Source: Methylobacterium organophilum
GTDB taxonomy: Bacteria > Pseudomonadota > Alphaproteobacteria > Rhizobiales > Beijerinckiaceae
NCBI RefSeq assembly: GCF_022179465.1
Contig: NZ_BPQV01000002.1
Span: 372,001-436,000, forward strand
Direction of reading: 5' to 3'
DNA length: 64,000 bases
Below the pieces are notes generated by a model. That model was not told the DNA's origin. It was given only the letters and a program-made list of their open reading frames with translations, and did not search any database. A program made the position numbers and the translations under genes. Positions within the stretch are counted from its first letter, which is position 1; every line of letters starts with the position of its first letter. Of the stretch, positions 32,241 through 38,838 are shown in pieces.

Positions 32241-34892
32241 TCACCCCCGCCGCGCCCGGTTGCAGAGCAGGTTGAGGATCAGCGCCGTCCAGCCGGTCTG
32301 GTGCGAGGCGCCGAGGCCCCGGCCGGTATCGCCGTCGAAGAACTCGTGGAACAGGAGCGGCTCCGTCCCGTCCGGGGCCGAGACCGGCGCCGGCGCGCTG
32401 CCGCGATAGGCGCGCCGGCCCTCGGCATCGCGGGTGAACAGGCCGATCAGCCGGTCCTCCAGGGCGTCGGCGATGGCGTTCAGGTTCAGGTGCTCCCCCG
32501 AGCCGGTCGGATACTCGACCAGGAAGTCGTCGCCGTAATAGGCGTGGAAGCGGCGCAGGGCCTCGATGATCAGGTAGTTCATCGGCATCCAGACCGGCCC
32601 GCGCCAGTTGGAATTGCCGCCGAACATGTTCGAGGTGGAATCGGCCGGGTCGTAGCGCACGGTGAAGGAGGCGCCGAGGGCGTTCAGGGAATAGGGCTCC
32701 GCCTGATGCGCCTTGGAGAGCGAGCGCACGCCGTGGGGGGAGAGGAACTCCGCCTCGTCGAGCATGCGCTTCAGGAGCGCCTTCATGCGGTGCCCGCGCA
32801 GGAGCGAGAGCAGCTTGCGGTCGCCGACGCCGCCCTCCGTCCAGCGGGAGACGAGGCGGGCAAGGTGGGGGCGGTTCTCCAGCACCCAGTTCAGGCGCCG
32901 GGCGAAATCCGGCAGCCGCTGCAGCATCGCCGGCTCGATCACCTCGACGGCGAAGAGCGGCACCAGCCCGACCATGGAGCGCACCCGCAGGGGCAGCATG
33001 CGCCCGTCGGGCATGTCGACCTCGTCGTAGTAGAACGCGTCCTCCTCGTCCCACAGGCCGAAGCCCTCGCCGCCCATGTCGGTCATGGCCTCGGCGATGA
33101 GCAGGAAGTGCTCGAAGAACTTCGAGGCGGTGCTCTCGTAGACGTCGTTGTGCTGGGCGAGCTCCAGGGCGATCCGCATCATGGTGAGGGCGTACATCGC
33201 CATCCAGGCGGTGCCGTCCGCCTGGTGCACCATGCCGAAGCCGGGGGGCGGCCGGGAGCGGTCGAACACCCCGACATTGTCGAGCCCGAGGAAGCCGCCC
33301 TGGAAGACGTTGCGGCCGCCCGCATCCTTCCGGTTCACCCACCAGGTGAAGTTGATGAGCAATTTGTGGAACACGCCCTCCAGGAAGGCGAGGTCGCCCC
33401 GCCCTCCGCGCCGGTCCCGGTCGATCTCGAAGACACGGAAGGTCGCCCAGGCATGGACCGGCGGGTTGGTGTCCCCGAACTCCCACTCATAGGCGGGCAA
33501 TTGCCCGTTCGGGTGCATGTACCATTCGCGGGTGAGCAGCAGCAGCTGGTTCTTGGCGAAGGTCGGGTCGAGCAGCGCCAGCGGGATGCAGTGGAAGGCG
33601 AGGTCCCAGGCCGCGAACCAGGGATATTCCCACTTGTCCGGCATGGAGAGCACGTCGTTGGCCGCGAAATGCGCCCAGGTGCGGTTGCGGCCCTCCCGCC
33701 GCTCCGAGGGCGGGCGCGGCATCAGCGGATCGCCCTGCAGCCAGAGGCGGACATCGTAGCGGTAGAGCTGCTTGGTCCAGATCAGGCCGGCGGCGGCCTG
33801 CCGGAAGATGGCGCGGGCATCCGCGTCCTCGATGCCGTCCTGAAGGGAATCGTAGAAGGCGTCGGTCTCGGCGACCCGCTGGCGCAGCAGGCAATCCTCG
33901 CGGTCGACGGGGCGCGGGCTCGCCCCGGCCCGCAACCGCAGGCGGATCGAGGCCTCCTCGCCGGGGCGGAGGCGCAGCACGTAGTGCAGACCGACCTTGG
34001 TGCCGGATTCCTCGCGGATCGCGTCCGCGTCGCCATCGACGATCGCCGCATGGAAGCCGTCCTTGAAGGGGCCGGGCGCGTCGGGCTGGCCGGCATAGCG
34101 GCGCAGGTTCGTCTCGTTCTCGCAGAACATCACCCGCGGCGCGCCCTCGAAGGTGAGGTCGTAGGGGCCGAGCCGGGGATGCTCGCAGGCGACGCTGCCG
34201 TCCGGGCGCAGCCGCATGATGGGATGCGGCTGCGTCCCGTTCGCCTGCCAGGACCAGGTGTTGCGGAACCAAGCCTGCGGGATCAGGTGGAGATCCGCCG
34301 TCTCGGGCCCGCGATTGACCGCCGTGACGCGCATGTGGATGTCCTCGACATCCCCCTTCGCGTACTCGACCGTCACGTCGAAGAAGCGGTTCTGCGCGAA
34401 GACGCCGGTATCCTCGATCTCGTATTCCGGCTGCTCGCGGCTGCGCTCCCGGCCCGCGCGCAGCAGGGCGTCGTAGGGATAGGCGGCCTGGGGGTAGCGG
34501 TAGAGGAACTTGAGGTAGGCGTGGCTCGGGACCGCGTCGAGGTAATGGTAGACCTCCTTCACGTCCTCGCCGTGGTTGCCCTCCTCGTTGGTCAGGCCGA
34601 ACAGGCGCTCCTTGAGGATGTGGTCGCGCCCGTTCCAGAGGGCCAGCGACAGGCAGAGGAAGCCCCGCTCGTCGCACAGGCCCGCGAGCCCGTCCTCCCC
34701 CCAGCGATAGGCGCGGGAGCGCGCATCGTCATGGGTGAGGAAGCGCCAGGCATTGCCGTCGCGGCTGTAATCCTCGCGCACCGTGCCCCACTGGCGCTCG
34801 CTCAGGTAGGGACCCCAGAGGGACCAGGGGCGCTCGCCACGGGTCTGCTCGGCGATGCGGCGGCGCTCCGCCCAGGTCTCGATCATCTCCAT
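32241..34892 (-). CDS. MGH1/GH63-like glycosidase
   Basis: This 883-residue cytoplasmic protein has no signal peptide. It has an (alpha/alpha)6-barrel-type C-terminal half with blocks typical of the mannosylglycerate-hydrolase/GH63 group: [63 protein letters not shown] and [11 protein letters not shown] at the end. The N-terminal beta-sandwich includes [18 protein letters not shown]. These enzymes act on alpha-glucosides or compatible-solute glycosides. The start at 34892 gives the usual [15 protein letters not shown]-terminus. It appears to form an operon with the GH26-like gene. The physiological substrate is unknown. Confidence 0.85.
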
Positions 34893-35226
34893 GCCGATGG
34901 CCCTCAGGCGCGCCGGAGGCCGCGGGCCGGCGCGGCGTCGCGGTGCGCGCGGGAACGGGCACGAACATGTCTCGATAAGGGCTGGGACAACGAACGAAGG
35001 CGCATCGAACTCGGCAGGCGATCGGCTTGGAGCGCCTAACATGCATCATCAGCGCCAGCTCCGGGCTGCGCTGGGCGTCGGGCTGATTTCAACCGCATGC
35101 AGGCGGCCGATGCGGCAGCGCGGCAACGCTCACCCCACCGTGTTCGGGCCGTTAAGAAAGCGGTTACCATGCAGGCCTAGCGCGTGATTCAGAACAGGCG
35201 CCATTCCGGCGCCGCAAGTACGCGCC
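34893..35226. other. 334-bp divergent region upstream of the glycosidase and YgjV-like genes
   Basis: No coding gene is supported. It should hold promoters for both divergent genes; AT-richer sequence near 35150-35168 (GTTAAGAAAGCGGTTACC) is the best candidate region. No clear hairpin or repeat was found. Confidence 0.3.
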
Positions 35227-35793
35227 ATGATTGTTTTCGAGACGGCCCTCCCTACGCTGACATCGGTCACGGCGCAGATCGATATCTTCGGAAGTCTCGG
35301 ACTGTGTTGCGGCTCCGGCGCGGGCCTGATGCCCCGGCGCAGCTGGATTCTTCGGATGTCGGCGCTGTGCAGTGCCTGTTTCGCGCTGCATTTCCTGCGT
35401 CTCGGCGCGCTGACCGGCACCGCCATGTGCAGCATCTCGGTGATGCAGAGCCTGCTCTCGGCGCAGTTCGTGCGCGACGGGCGCCGTCCGGACTGGCTGG
35501 GGCCGCTCTTCGCCCTGAGCTTTCTCGTGGTGATGGCGCTGACCGCCGCGACCTGGGCCGGCTGGCCCTCGGCCTGCGCGGGGATCGGGGCGCTGCTCGC
35601 CACCACCGGCCGGCTCCAGACCCGGACCGCCGCGATGCGCCGCTTCTTCCTGGCGAGCTCGACCTGCTGGGCCGGGCACAACCTGCTCGTCGGCTCGCCC
35701 TTCGGGCTGACCTGCGATCTCCTGACCCTCTCCGGCCTCGCCCTGCACCGCGAGCGGGCCGTCCCGCTGGCGCCGCAGTTGAAGGCGGCCTGA
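35227..35793 (+). CDS. YgjV-like small membrane protein
   Basis: This 188-residue protein is predicted to span the inner membrane five to six times, with short loops. The order of helices and the segments IFGSLGLCCG, SALCSACFALHFLRLG and CWAGHNLLVGSPFG resemble the YgjV family of uncharacterised inner-membrane proteins. It stands alone on the plus strand inside an otherwise minus-strand glycan cluster. No catalytic motif is seen. The family placement is by pattern only. Confidence 0.62.
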   Translation: MIVFETALPTLTSVTAQIDIFGSLGLCCGSGAGLMPRRSWILRMSALCSACFALHFLRLGALTGTAMCSISVMQSLLSAQFVRDGRRPDWLGPLFALSFLVVMALTAATWAGWPSACAGIGALLATTGRLQTRTAAMRRFFLASSTCWAGHNLLVGSPFGLTCDLLTLSGLALHRERAVPLAPQLKAA

Positions 35794-36073
35794 GCGCACG
35801 CGCGGCCGGAGCGGACCACGCGCCCGGGAGCGCCACGTCGCGCCCAAGCCCATGGGCGGTGATGCGTGTCGTATCGGATCGAGGCTCATGCCGGCCCGAT
35901 CCTGTCTGCTGAAGGGTCCGGCCGGGTGACGGGCGGCGCCCCCGGTGTCCCTGTGGATCGCCGCGGCGGCGAAACGTGGCCACGTGCTCCCGAACACAGC
36001 CAAGCCGGGGCGATCCGGTGTCAATCACGACAGACGCCAACAAGACGTCGCACCGACATCAGGAGATCTTCCC

Positions 36074-36325
36074 ATGACCCACCGTGACATGACCGCGATG
36101 ACCACCGATCAGACCATCGGCGCCCAGCCCGTTCTTCTTTCCGACGACGCTCTCGATCAGGTCCATGGCGGCGCCCGCTCGGCGTTCGGAGACCTCGACC
36201 GCATGTTCAACGACATCAAGCGCGGCATCGGCAACGGCGCGACCTATGTGGACTACCACCACGAGAGCAAGACGGTCGGCGGCAACACGACGACGGTCAC
36301 GCAGAGCCGCTTCCGCCGCCGGTAA
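36074..36325 (+). CDS. Double-glycine-leader peptide, candidate secreted or modified peptide
   Basis: This 83-residue peptide has an AGGAGA ribosome binding site eight bases before the ATG. Residues 22-33 read LSDDALDQVHGG, which fits the consensus of double-glycine leaders (LS-x2-x-L-x-x-V-x-GG) recognised by C39-peptidase ABC exporters. Cleavage after Gly33 would release a 50-residue basic product (ARSAFGDLDRMFNDIKRG to FRRR) with no cysteine and a tail of polar residues. No C39 transporter, immunity or modification gene lies in the window. A terminator follows, so it is a single-gene transcript. It could be a bacteriocin-like peptide, a signalling peptide, or an unrelated protein with a chance match. 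Confidence 0.68.
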   Translation: MTHRDMTAMTTDQTIGAQPVLLSDDALDQVHGGARSAFGDLDRMFNDIKRGIGNGATYVDYHHESKTVGGNTTTVTQSRFRRR

Positions 36326-36355
36326 GCCAAAGCCGTCCCAAGCCCTGCCATGTCG

Positions 36356-36390
36356 GCCCGCCCGGTTCGCCGCGGCGGGCTCGTTCGTTT
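36356..36390 (+). terminator. Terminator after the double-glycine peptide gene
   Basis: GCCCGCC (36356-36362) pairs with GGCGGGC (36374-36380), followed by TCGTTCGTTT. The T tract is interrupted. Confidence 0.55.
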
Positions 36391-36510
36391 CTGGCGGATC
36401 GCTGTCCCGGTCCGGCGGCACGGTCCGCTCGACCAAGCGGCCCTTCGTCACCGCCTCCGATGATCGCCTCGCCCCGGTGAGGCGCCGGGCTGCAGGGCAG
36501 CCCGGCTCCC

Positions 36511-38838
36511 TCATTTCAGCAGCGAGATCTGCACGTCGCCGACGCGGCGGGTCACCGCGACGGTGACGTCGTCGTCGTGCCGGTGCAGGCGCAGGTCGGC
36601 GCGGGACTCGCCGAGCTTCAGATTGAACAGGTGCACCGCCTCCAGGAAGGGCGGCAGGATCGGGTCGCGGAAGCGGATCCGGTTGCGCTCATGGTCGAGT
36701 TCGAGGCCGAGGCAGGCGGCCAGGAAGGCGAAGGGTGCCGCCGCCGCCCAGGCCTGGGGCGAGCAGGCCACGGGGTAGTTCACCGGCCCGCGCTGGCGCC
36801 GGCGCATGAAGCCGCAGAACAGTTCCGGGAGCCGCTTCTGGTCGTAGTAGAGGCTGGTGTCGAACATGCCCTGGAACACCCGGGCCGCCTCCGCCTTCAG
36901 GCCGTAGCGGGCGAGGCCGAGGGCGCAGATCGCGTTGTCGTGCGGCCAGATCGAGCCGTTGTGGTAGGACATCGGATTGTAGCGCGCCTCGCCCTTGGCG
37001 ATGGTGCGGATGCCCCAGCCGTTGAAGCCGTCGTTGCAGAGGAGCTGCGCGGCCACCTTCGGTGCCCGCTCCGGCAGGGCGATGTCCGTGAACAGGGCAT
37101 GGCCGGCATTGGAGGAGCGCACGGCGCATTGCCGCTTCTCGCCGTCGAGGGCGAGGGCGTAGGTGCCGATCTCCTCGCACCAGAAGGCGGCGTCGAACTT
37201 CTCGCGCAGGGTGTTGGCGGCGGCGGAGAGCCGGTTCGAGAGCTCGTCCTTGCCGAGCAGGCTCGCCAGTCGGGCCGCGCCGCGCTTGGCCGCGTAGACG
37301 TAGCCCTGCACCTCGCACAGGGCGATCGGCCCCTTGGCCATGGCGCCGTCGGCGTGGAAGATCGAATCGTGGCTGTCCTTCCAGCCCTGGTTGGCGAGCC
37401 CCTTCTCGGTCTCGCGGGCATATTCCACGAAGCCGTCGCCGTCCCGGTCGCCGTAGGTGTCGATCCAGTCCAGCGCCAGCTCGATCGCCGGCCAGATCGC
37501 CTCGATCGTGCCCCGGTCGCCGGTGATCGCGTAATACTGCGCGGCCAGCATCACGAAGAGCGGCGTGGCGTCGATGGTGCCGTAATAGTGGCGGAAGGGC
37601 ACCTCGCCGAGCATCGCCATCTCGCCGCGCCGGGTCTCGTGCAGGACCTTGCCGGGCTGGGCGTCGGCCTCCGGATCGACGGTCTTGGCCTGGGTCGCGG
37701 CGAGGAAGCGCAGGACGCCCTTGCCGAAATTCGGATCGATCCAGAGGGCCATCATCGCGGTGATGATGCCGTCGCGGCCGAACACCGTGGAGTACCAGGG
37801 GATGCCGGCGAAGGGGTAGACGCCCTCCTGGGTGCGGGTCGCCAGCATGTAGAGATCGGCGGTGGCCCGGCAGAGGCCCTCGTTGAACTGGTCGTTCGAG
37901 GAGATGATCGTGGTGATGCCCGCGGTCAGGGCCCGCTGGTCGCGGCGGTTGTCGCGATAGGCGCGGGCGAAGATGCGGCCCTCGGTGATGTGCCGGGCCG
38001 GCCGGTCGGCCAAGCTGCCCGCGGCCCGGGACAGGGCGGCGGCGGCCTCCTCGCCGGCCTTCACCGGGCCGGGGGCCGAGGTGTAGGCGCGGTGCGCGTC
38101 GAAGGCGACGCGCAGGAAGAGCGAGCTGTGGGCGCCGGGCGCCAGCGTCACCTCGAACTCCGCCACGCCGGGCTCGAGCTTCACGGGCTTGGGGCCGAAA
38201 TGCACGGAGGTGGTGCGCACGATCTCATCGAGGCCCGCATAGCGGAACTGCACCTCGGTCTCGCTCGCCACCAGCACGGAGCGCTTGCCGCGATGGGTGC
38301 GGTCGGTGCCGCGCACCTCGAACAGGTCGCGGAAATCGGCGTCGAAGGTCACGCCGATGCGCAGGCGCCGGGTGCGGGTGTCGTAGTTGCGCAGGCCGAT
38401 GCGGTCGTAGCAGGCGCCGCGATATAGGAACTTGGTGCGCTCGATCGCGATCAGCTCGCGGGGGATCGAGGTCTCGTCATGGGCGTCGAGGCGGATGTCC
38501 GGCGTGGTCAGGTCGACGCTCAGCGCGCCGTTGTCGTCCTGCATCGCCGAGGACAGCATCATCGGGCGCTGATCCTCGATGGTCAGCGCCAGGCGCGAGA
38601 GGTAGCGCGTGTCCTGGAAATACAGGCCCTCGGCGCCGGGCACCCAGCCGATATCGCCGTAGGCGTCGAGGACGGCGAAGGCCTCGCCGTATTTCAGCGA
38701 GCGCAGGGGCCGGTCGGTCAGCGAGGTCGTGGCCTCGATGTGGTATTGCGGCAGCGCCTCGTCGGCATCGACGAACCCCGCCGACCCTGCCGCCTCGCGC
38801 GCGTGCTTGGGACCCTGTGCCGCCGTGCCTGCCGCCAT
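36511..38838 (-). CDS. Glycogen-debranching-type glycosidase (GDE_N_bis + amylo-alpha-1,6-glucosidase-like)
   Basis: The protein has 775 residues. The N-terminal GDE_N_bis domain (about 40-230, with KYGEAFAVLDAYGDIGW and GLYFQDTRYLSRLAL) precedes an (alpha/alpha)6 barrel containing PWYSTVFGRDGIITAMMAL, HETRRGEMAMLGEVPF, GWKDSHDSIFHADG and NGSIWPHDNAICALGL. This is the widespread bacterial amylo-alpha-1,6-glucosidase-like family, which acts on alpha-glucans or small alpha-glucosides. The start at 38838 follows AGGAGAGG with good spacing; earlier Met codons lack this. It lies downstream of the GT4 gene on the same strand, a pairing common in alphaproteobacteria. The exact substrate is unknown. 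Confidence 0.87.
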   Translation of the reverse strand: MAAGTAAQGPKHAREAAGSAGFVDADEALPQYHIEATTSLTDRPLRSLKYGEAFAVLDAYGDIGWVPGAEGLYFQDTRYLSRLALTIEDQRPMMLSSAMQDDNGALSVDLTTPDIRLDAHDETSIPRELIAIERTKFLYRGACYDRIGLRNYDTRTRRLRIGVTFDADFRDLFEVRGTDRTHRGKRSVLVASETEVQFRYAGLDEIVRTTSVHFGPKPVKLEPGVAEFEVTLAPGAHSSLFLRVAFDAHRAYTSAPGPVKAGEEAAAALSRAAGSLADRPARHITEGRIFARAYRDNRRDQRALTAGITTIISSNDQFNEGLCRATADLYMLATRTQEGVYPFAGIPWYSTVFGRDGIITAMMALWIDPNFGKGVLRFLAATQAKTVDPEADAQPGKVLHETRRGEMAMLGEVPFRHYYGTIDATPLFVMLAAQYYAITGDRGTIEAIWPAIELALDWIDTYGDRDGDGFVEYARETEKGLANQGWKDSHDSIFHADGAMAKGPIALCEVQGYVYAAKRGAARLASLLGKDELSNRLSAAANTLREKFDAAFWCEEIGTYALALDGEKRQCAVRSSNAGHALFTDIALPERAPKVAAQLLCNDGFNGWGIRTIAKGEARYNPMSYHNGSIWPHDNAICALGLARYGLKAEAARVFQGMFDTSLYYDQKRLPELFCGFMRRRQRGPVNYPVACSPQAWAAAAPFAFLAACLGLELDHERNRIRFRDPILPPFLEAVHLFNLKLGESRADLRLHRHDDDVTVAVTRRVGDVQISLLK

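Follow-up and report, generated by a model that had tools for sequence, protein, structure and literature searches.

Why a gene for a peptide with the signature of an export substrate should stand apart from any exporter is the question raised by this locus. The gene lies on contig C2 of a 5.06 Mb draft genome (113 contigs; here G000), within the 64 kb stretch of DNA that was analysed (the window), and its neighbours encode, by Pfam, a GH63/MGH1-like glycosidase, a YgjV-type membrane protein, a glycogen-debranching-type enzyme and a glycosyltransferase. It appears most plausible, at roughly 60%, that the product is a secreted and probably unmodified peptide resembling the class II microcins, encoded in one of several dispersed, exchangeable cassettes and served by a distant C39 exporter, most likely the NHLM system on contig C5.

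The 83-residue open reading frame named in the preliminary description was confirmed at 36074-36325 on the forward strand, with the double-glycine leader motif LSDDALDQVHGG at residues 22-33 (L22-S-D-D-A-L-D-Q-V-H-G-G33), and the ribosome binding site that had been proposed for it is borne out 7 bases before the ATG (Table 1). Leaders of C39 (PCAT) substrates carry hydrophobic residues at -4, -7 and -12 and end in GG, or in GA or GS (PMC6363468). The present leader has V-4, L-7 and L-12, the positions that dock into the C39 peptidase (PMC6363468), and ends in GG. The double-glycine reading is further supported by the four family members found, all of which keep GG though leader or core varies. 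A scan of the window for GG leaders returned this peptide as its sole candidate; among 30 simulated order-3 Markov windows the strict motif did not occur, and a looser motif occurred 0.1 times per window. The leader matches no nitrile-hydratase-like (NHLP) or Nif11-like model in Pfam or NCBIfam, the peptide as a whole has no Pfam match up to E 10, and the NCBIfam search returned only BLP_Lacticasei and XyeA, both below their cut-offs. The predicted 50-residue product is basic, as had been described (pI 10.4, charge about +4, C-terminus FRRR), and its sequence is free of cysteine. It would begin with ARSAF and have a mass of about 5,661 Da. If the leader acts as its sequence suggests, a C39 domain would dock the leader helix via V-4, L-7 and L-12, cut after the GG and then export the basic core.

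The preliminary description had seen no exporter nearby and expected the peptide to depend on machinery elsewhere. A PF03412 search of the genome agrees with it: the window holds no C39 exporter, and the only two matches, on contigs C5 and C3 (126.6 and 123.1 bits), mark two C39-peptidase ABC exporters in the same genome. The exporter on C5 is a complete NHLM system consisting of HlyD, peptidase-ABC and second ABC subunits (TIGR03794, TIGR03796 and TIGR03797; 960, 811 and 229 bits against cut-offs of 853, 709 and 156), and its peptidase domain has, by eye, the C, H and D of the C39 triad. The C3 transporter scores below the cut-off for each of the best 25 families listed.

The gene had also been called an orphan. 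This is true locally, but the genome contains eight other clear GG-leader peptides, two of them near paralogues of the window copy. Combining a leader profile, a family-1 profile and follow-up scans, we count at least nine such peptides: the window copy, its paralogues A and B, a member of core family 2 on contig C6, a pair next to the C3 exporter, and single ones on C12, C6 and C2. A nearly identical tandem pair on contig C4 (L117 and L118, about 306,500-306,930; leader end LDDAALDAVSAAGG), whose leaders end in SAAGG, was left out of the nine. The C12 and C6 peptides L121 1465-1710 (+) and L123 1498-1698 (+) have the core start WSFFPxPD in common and form a further small core family of this genome. 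The two peptides near the C3 exporter (L011 5621-5839 (-) and 7974-8195 (+)) are glycine-rich, and one of those beside it reaches 20.3 bits against Bacteriocin_IIc (PF10439; cut-off 27.1). For the core-family-2 peptide of this genome (L048 4479-4715 (+)) there is a sub-threshold match to the Ntox6 toxin domain (19.9 bits against 25), which did not recur in the other four of the five members scanned.

Paralogues A (76 aa) and B (79 aa) are likewise on C2, some 0.3 Mb from the window copy and, judged by the alignments, the window copy is a leader/core mosaic, with a B-like 5' half and an A-like core. Its leader is 98% identical to that of B and 46% to that of A, and its core is 71% identical to that of B and 90% to that of A. 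The 5' region upstream of the ATG behaves as the leader does, with identity at 135/141 bases to B (96%), 128/142 to a homologue in genome G111 and 63/142 to A, and the block over which it resembles B extends from about 35932 to 36405. The best split between the two halves lies at most 17 bases past the GG codons, and none of 10,000 shuffles gave one as good. Paralogue A (L007 10721-10951 (-)) differs from the window copy in leader and upstream sequence, and its core is nearly identical. Because the G111 homologue resembles both halves of the window copy (leader 85%, core 88%), the window arrangement may predate A and B, which would then be the rearranged copies, though the direction is not settled. 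The paralogues seem to have traded halves through recombination near the GG codons. In the LahT study the recognition motif was placed in the final 13 residues of the leader, and cores of very different kinds were accepted (PMC6363468); a new core joined to the present leader could therefore still be exported, which would make an exchange near the GG functional.

Table 1. Features of the peptide locus, in window coordinates.
Feature	Position	Strand	Evidence
5' region common to B and the G111 homologue, missing from A	35932..36073	+	alignment
Conserved non-coding 5' element, about 97 bases, ending on the ATG	35980..36076	+	covariance model R1
GTG-N8-CAC dyad in the element	35984..35997	+	3 pairs invariant, 12 sequences
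GACG-N9-CGTC hairpin or inverted repeat	36033..36049	+	97.9% of cells paired
Ribosome binding site AGGAGA	36061..36066	+	sequence
Double-glycine leader, 33 codons	36074..36172	+	97/99 bases as in B, 46/99 as in A
GG codons, predicted cleavage after 36172	36167..36172	+	GG in 4/4 family members
Core peptide, 50 codons and stop	36173..36325	+	135/150 bases as in A, 100/141 as in B
Recombination seam, B-like to A-like	36178..36189	+	best split, 99 informative sites
Terminator-like stem-loop with T-rich tail	36356..36391	+	scan stem 36364-36381; flank conservation, four copies

The mosaic is accompanied by a conserved element that ends on the start codon. Searching DNA with the 5' region plus leader, and then with a covariance model built from 12 copies, gave 12 strong sites spread over 4 of the 112 genus genomes (G000, G039, G103 and G111, three apiece). 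Their scores (76.1-107.7 bits, the next match in the genus genomes being 25.8) are high by construction because the model was built from those same copies, and no further copies were found in the 112 genomes. A laxer search of 11 genomes returned nothing between the strong sites and the 25.8-bit match, and a search of 398 sampled family genomes returned three of the same four genomes along with one chance match. Matches in G015 (25.8 bits) and G206 (27.3 bits) were dropped as chance since a scan found no GG-leader gene there.

All 12 elements precede a small open reading frame, with a GG leader in ten cases and an AG leader in two, so that in the genomes searched the element is restricted to genes of this kind. 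Behind the elements stand four core families with no evident mutual similarity: family 1 (the window copy, B and the G111 homologue), family 2 (GGHWDHSGK..., three genes, the element carriers lying in G000, G039 and G103), family 3 (DLFGVLHHT..., three genes) and family 4 (glycine-rich, three genes). Paralogue A has no such element. Within family 3 the leader ends in AG (VSAGD) in L013 (G103 C18) and L050 4977-5219 (G111 C211) and in GG (VAGGD) in G039, and genes with either ending sit behind the same 5' element. Element and leader together would make up a module joined to different cores.

An in-frame upstream extension of the peptide gene exists (GTG at 35945), but a coding role was rejected and the element is treated as non-coding because the spacing from ACAGCC to the ATG (77, 78, 79 or 81 bases) is out of frame in 4 of the 12 copies. 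Of the five matches to known RNA families at E 10 or better, none came close to its gathering score. In most other copies the hairpin reads GACGC/GCGTC or GATGC/GCATC; one of its four pairs is doubly changed in 3 of the 12 sequences and broken in one. The dyad is uninformative on pairing either way because its three pairs are invariant. Across the element 98.8% of cells are paired, against at most 62% when the pairing is slid, but 361 of 500 shuffles reach the observed count of doubly changed pairs; base pairing therefore has modest support. A scan limited to the sigma-70 type found no consensus promoter in 35000-37500; the element may be a promoter, an operator or an RNA. It is tempting to go further and to imagine, in some Methylobacterium-group bacteria, a dispersed arsenal of secreted peptides built on a portable unit of element and leader that captures and swaps cores at the GG, all feeding one distant NHLM exporter, in which the element would serve as a dedicated regulatory RNA or an operator and switch on the whole set together. 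We put forward this more ambitious scheme, and the co-regulation it entails, only tentatively.

If the peptide is a secreted microcin-like one, which exporter would serve it? Transporters at least 71% identical to the NHLM one occur in 10 of the 112 genus genomes (20 at E 1e-100), and C3-type transporters at least 74% identical in 44 (one in two pieces); all four element genomes are included in each case. With kinship uncorrected, the probability that such an overlap with the element genomes arises by chance is 3.4e-5 for the ten NHLM genomes, 7.8e-4 for the wider set of 20 and 0.022 for the 44 with a C3-type transporter. It is possible that the peptide leaves through the C3 exporter and that the NHLM system handles other cargo, since the C3 transporter, too, has a C39 domain, has its two glycine-rich peptides beside it and has relatives in every element genome. 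However, 40 of the 44 genomes with such a transporter are without the element, the overlap is the weaker of the two, and no element-bearing core family was found beside the exporter at the one locus inspected (L011). We regard the C3 route as unlikely, albeit as the alternative that survives best.

The loci of the NHLM exporters point to the C5 system instead. Six of the ten that were inspected have a nearby GG-leader gene (G103, G111, G110, G011, G032 and G002), and the scan returned none in G039, in G100 or on the 7 kb contig of G079. None was found beside the NHLM exporter of the window's own genome either, where one GG match at the C5 locus was dropped because it lies inside the second ABC gene in another frame. 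In G103 and G111 the exporter-adjacent gene belongs to core family 2, being 65% and 79% identical, respectively, to the element-bearing family-2 gene of the window's genome, and a GACGC-N7-GCGTC hairpin stands 15-16 bases 5' of its start (L102 12957-13196 (+) and L103 4840-5088 (-)); the covariance model did not find the rest of the element at these two genes. The presence of family 2 beside the NHLM exporter, together with the hairpin there, ties the element-bearing set, and hence the window gene, to this exporter. In G039 about 16 kb separates an element-bearing gene (C11:22,543) from the exporter, both being on one contig. The association of element and NHLM exporter rests on four genomes. 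In a PheT tree covering 30 of these 112 genomes, ten of them labelled rows, these four do not form one clade and the starred branches force at least two changes: G103 clusters with G012 and G042, both of which have neither element nor NHLM exporter. When the labels of those ten rows are shuffled, they cluster at least as much as the element does. A strong element is missing from six of the ten NHLM genomes, including G100, although G100 falls inside the clade of G000, G111 and G039. Overall, the C5 NHLM-type system would be the most likely exporter of the window peptide.

A different objection is that the core could be modified before export by an enzyme encoded elsewhere, so that the peptide would be a RiPP. 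NHLM exporters commonly carry modified precursors, whose modification genes may be distant (PMC2887384), and the leader has its XyeA (RiPP) match, sub-threshold at 15.1 bits against a cut-off of 33. The cysteine-free core speaks against it, as does the failure to recognise a modification enzyme among the neighbours scanned, in agreement with the preliminary description. The core is probably unmodified, and we consider a RiPP improbable. Nor was an immunity gene identified, again as described before: the adjacent genes match the YgjV and glycogen-debranching families, although a short unannotated immunity gene may have escaped notice.

A terminator had been claimed, and there is indeed one candidate stem; however, shuffles of the same stretch yield 0.9 candidates on average, so that the call is weak on its own. 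By eye a longer stem can be drawn, pairing 36356-36362 with 36374-36380, and the 3' flank as a whole (36326-36405) is 84-95% identical across the four related copies. Further downstream, a comparison of 17 Methylobacteriaceae loci (80 fetched) found DNA similarity to 34800-36700 restricted to the debranching-type gene and stopping at 36501-36591, and the YgjV protein had no match across the same 17 loci. By the end of the debranching-type gene the nearest named relatives are Methylorubrum zatmanii (92%) and M. salsuginis (88%), in a collection from which the closest records to this genome may be missing. The gene that follows at this locus in M. zatmanii is one that we take to be IF-3. Gene order switches within 36325-36511 of the window. 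Because what the relatives share is the debranching-type gene and nothing upstream of about 36501, the peptide gene appears to sit at a rearrangement boundary.

The family to which the gene belongs is rare, with members in 3 of the 112 genus genomes at E 1e-3, that in G103 being found mainly via the leader. Among the 398 sampled family genomes the family-1 profile matched five at E 0.01 (G000 in full, G103 and G039 in the leader only, G118 and G159 weakly), and G111 appears neither in this result nor in that for the element. Searches for relatives gave no matches in plasmids or PHROGs at E 0.1, none in viral_contigs and none in genome_contigs, a collection that may leave out the closest records to this genome; the PDB search gave one sequence, at E 0.71. 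Homologues keeping the C-terminal half and lacking the GG, which would have told against a double-glycine leader, were not seen among the four members. Between species the leader looks constrained, and more so than the core: the window copy and the G111 homologue differ in the leader by dN 0.13 against dS 0.32, and for the core three comparisons gave dN 0.12-0.15 against dS 0.06-0.11, on small counts. Because core dN is at or above dS, the core may be drifting. That the copies are decaying remnants without a functional product, in which recent duplication preserves the leader as the core drifts, would accord with these core values and with the rarity of the family, but it is improbable given that four copies keep the reading frame, the GG, FRR near the C-terminus and the 3' flank, that the leader looks constrained, and that a fixed leader with fast-changing cores is also seen in such peptide families (PMC2887384).

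As to what a secreted, microcin-like peptide would be for, antagonism of competing bacteria is the likeliest role and our best guess, held at slightly less than even odds; it fits best because the product would be a basic secreted peptide from a set with fast-changing cores. A signalling role comes next and seems rather unlikely. Whatever its activity, the apparent orphan now belongs to a modular set of methylotroph peptides for which there is a candidate exporter, and the mosaic offers a concrete example of exchange at the leader/core boundary. The 5' element provides a handle for finding more peptides with dissimilar cores.

In the open-licence literature we found no description of this peptide set, of its shared 5' element or of exchange at the GG within it, and its closest counterparts are partial ones. 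NHLM systems pair conserved leaders with hypervariable cores and have multiple precursors in a genome (Haft, Basu and Mitchell 2010, PMC2887384), and precursors distant from modification genes are known, including a Gly-Gly (NHLP) precursor of Methylobacterium sp. 4-46 (PMC2887384). The present set resembles NHLM systems with NHLP/Nif11 precursors in the three-part exporter family, the conserved leader ending in GG, the variable cores and the multiple precursors (PMC2887384). However, its leader is short (33 residues) and matches no NHLP/Nif11 model, and the shared 5' element and the core exchange are features that the part of that account drawn on here does not describe (PMC2887384). The glycine-zipper bacteriocin CdzC/CdzD of Caulobacter (PMC5380434) is likewise alphaproteobacterial, and family 4 and the C3-adjacent peptides are glycine-rich; the window core is instead basic and not glycine-zipper-like. 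The class II bacteriocins of PF10439 have a similar type of leader, although a Pfam search with the window peptide gave nothing at E 10. Double-glycine peptides are known in Gram-negative bacteria, for which a 2004 screen is cited (PMC9746304). Whereas the window gene is distant from its putative exporter, has no identified immunity gene and is known from sequence alone, it shares with the class II microcins of Enterobacterales a GG-type leader, a C39 ABC exporter with a membrane fusion protein, and a variable core (PMC9746304).
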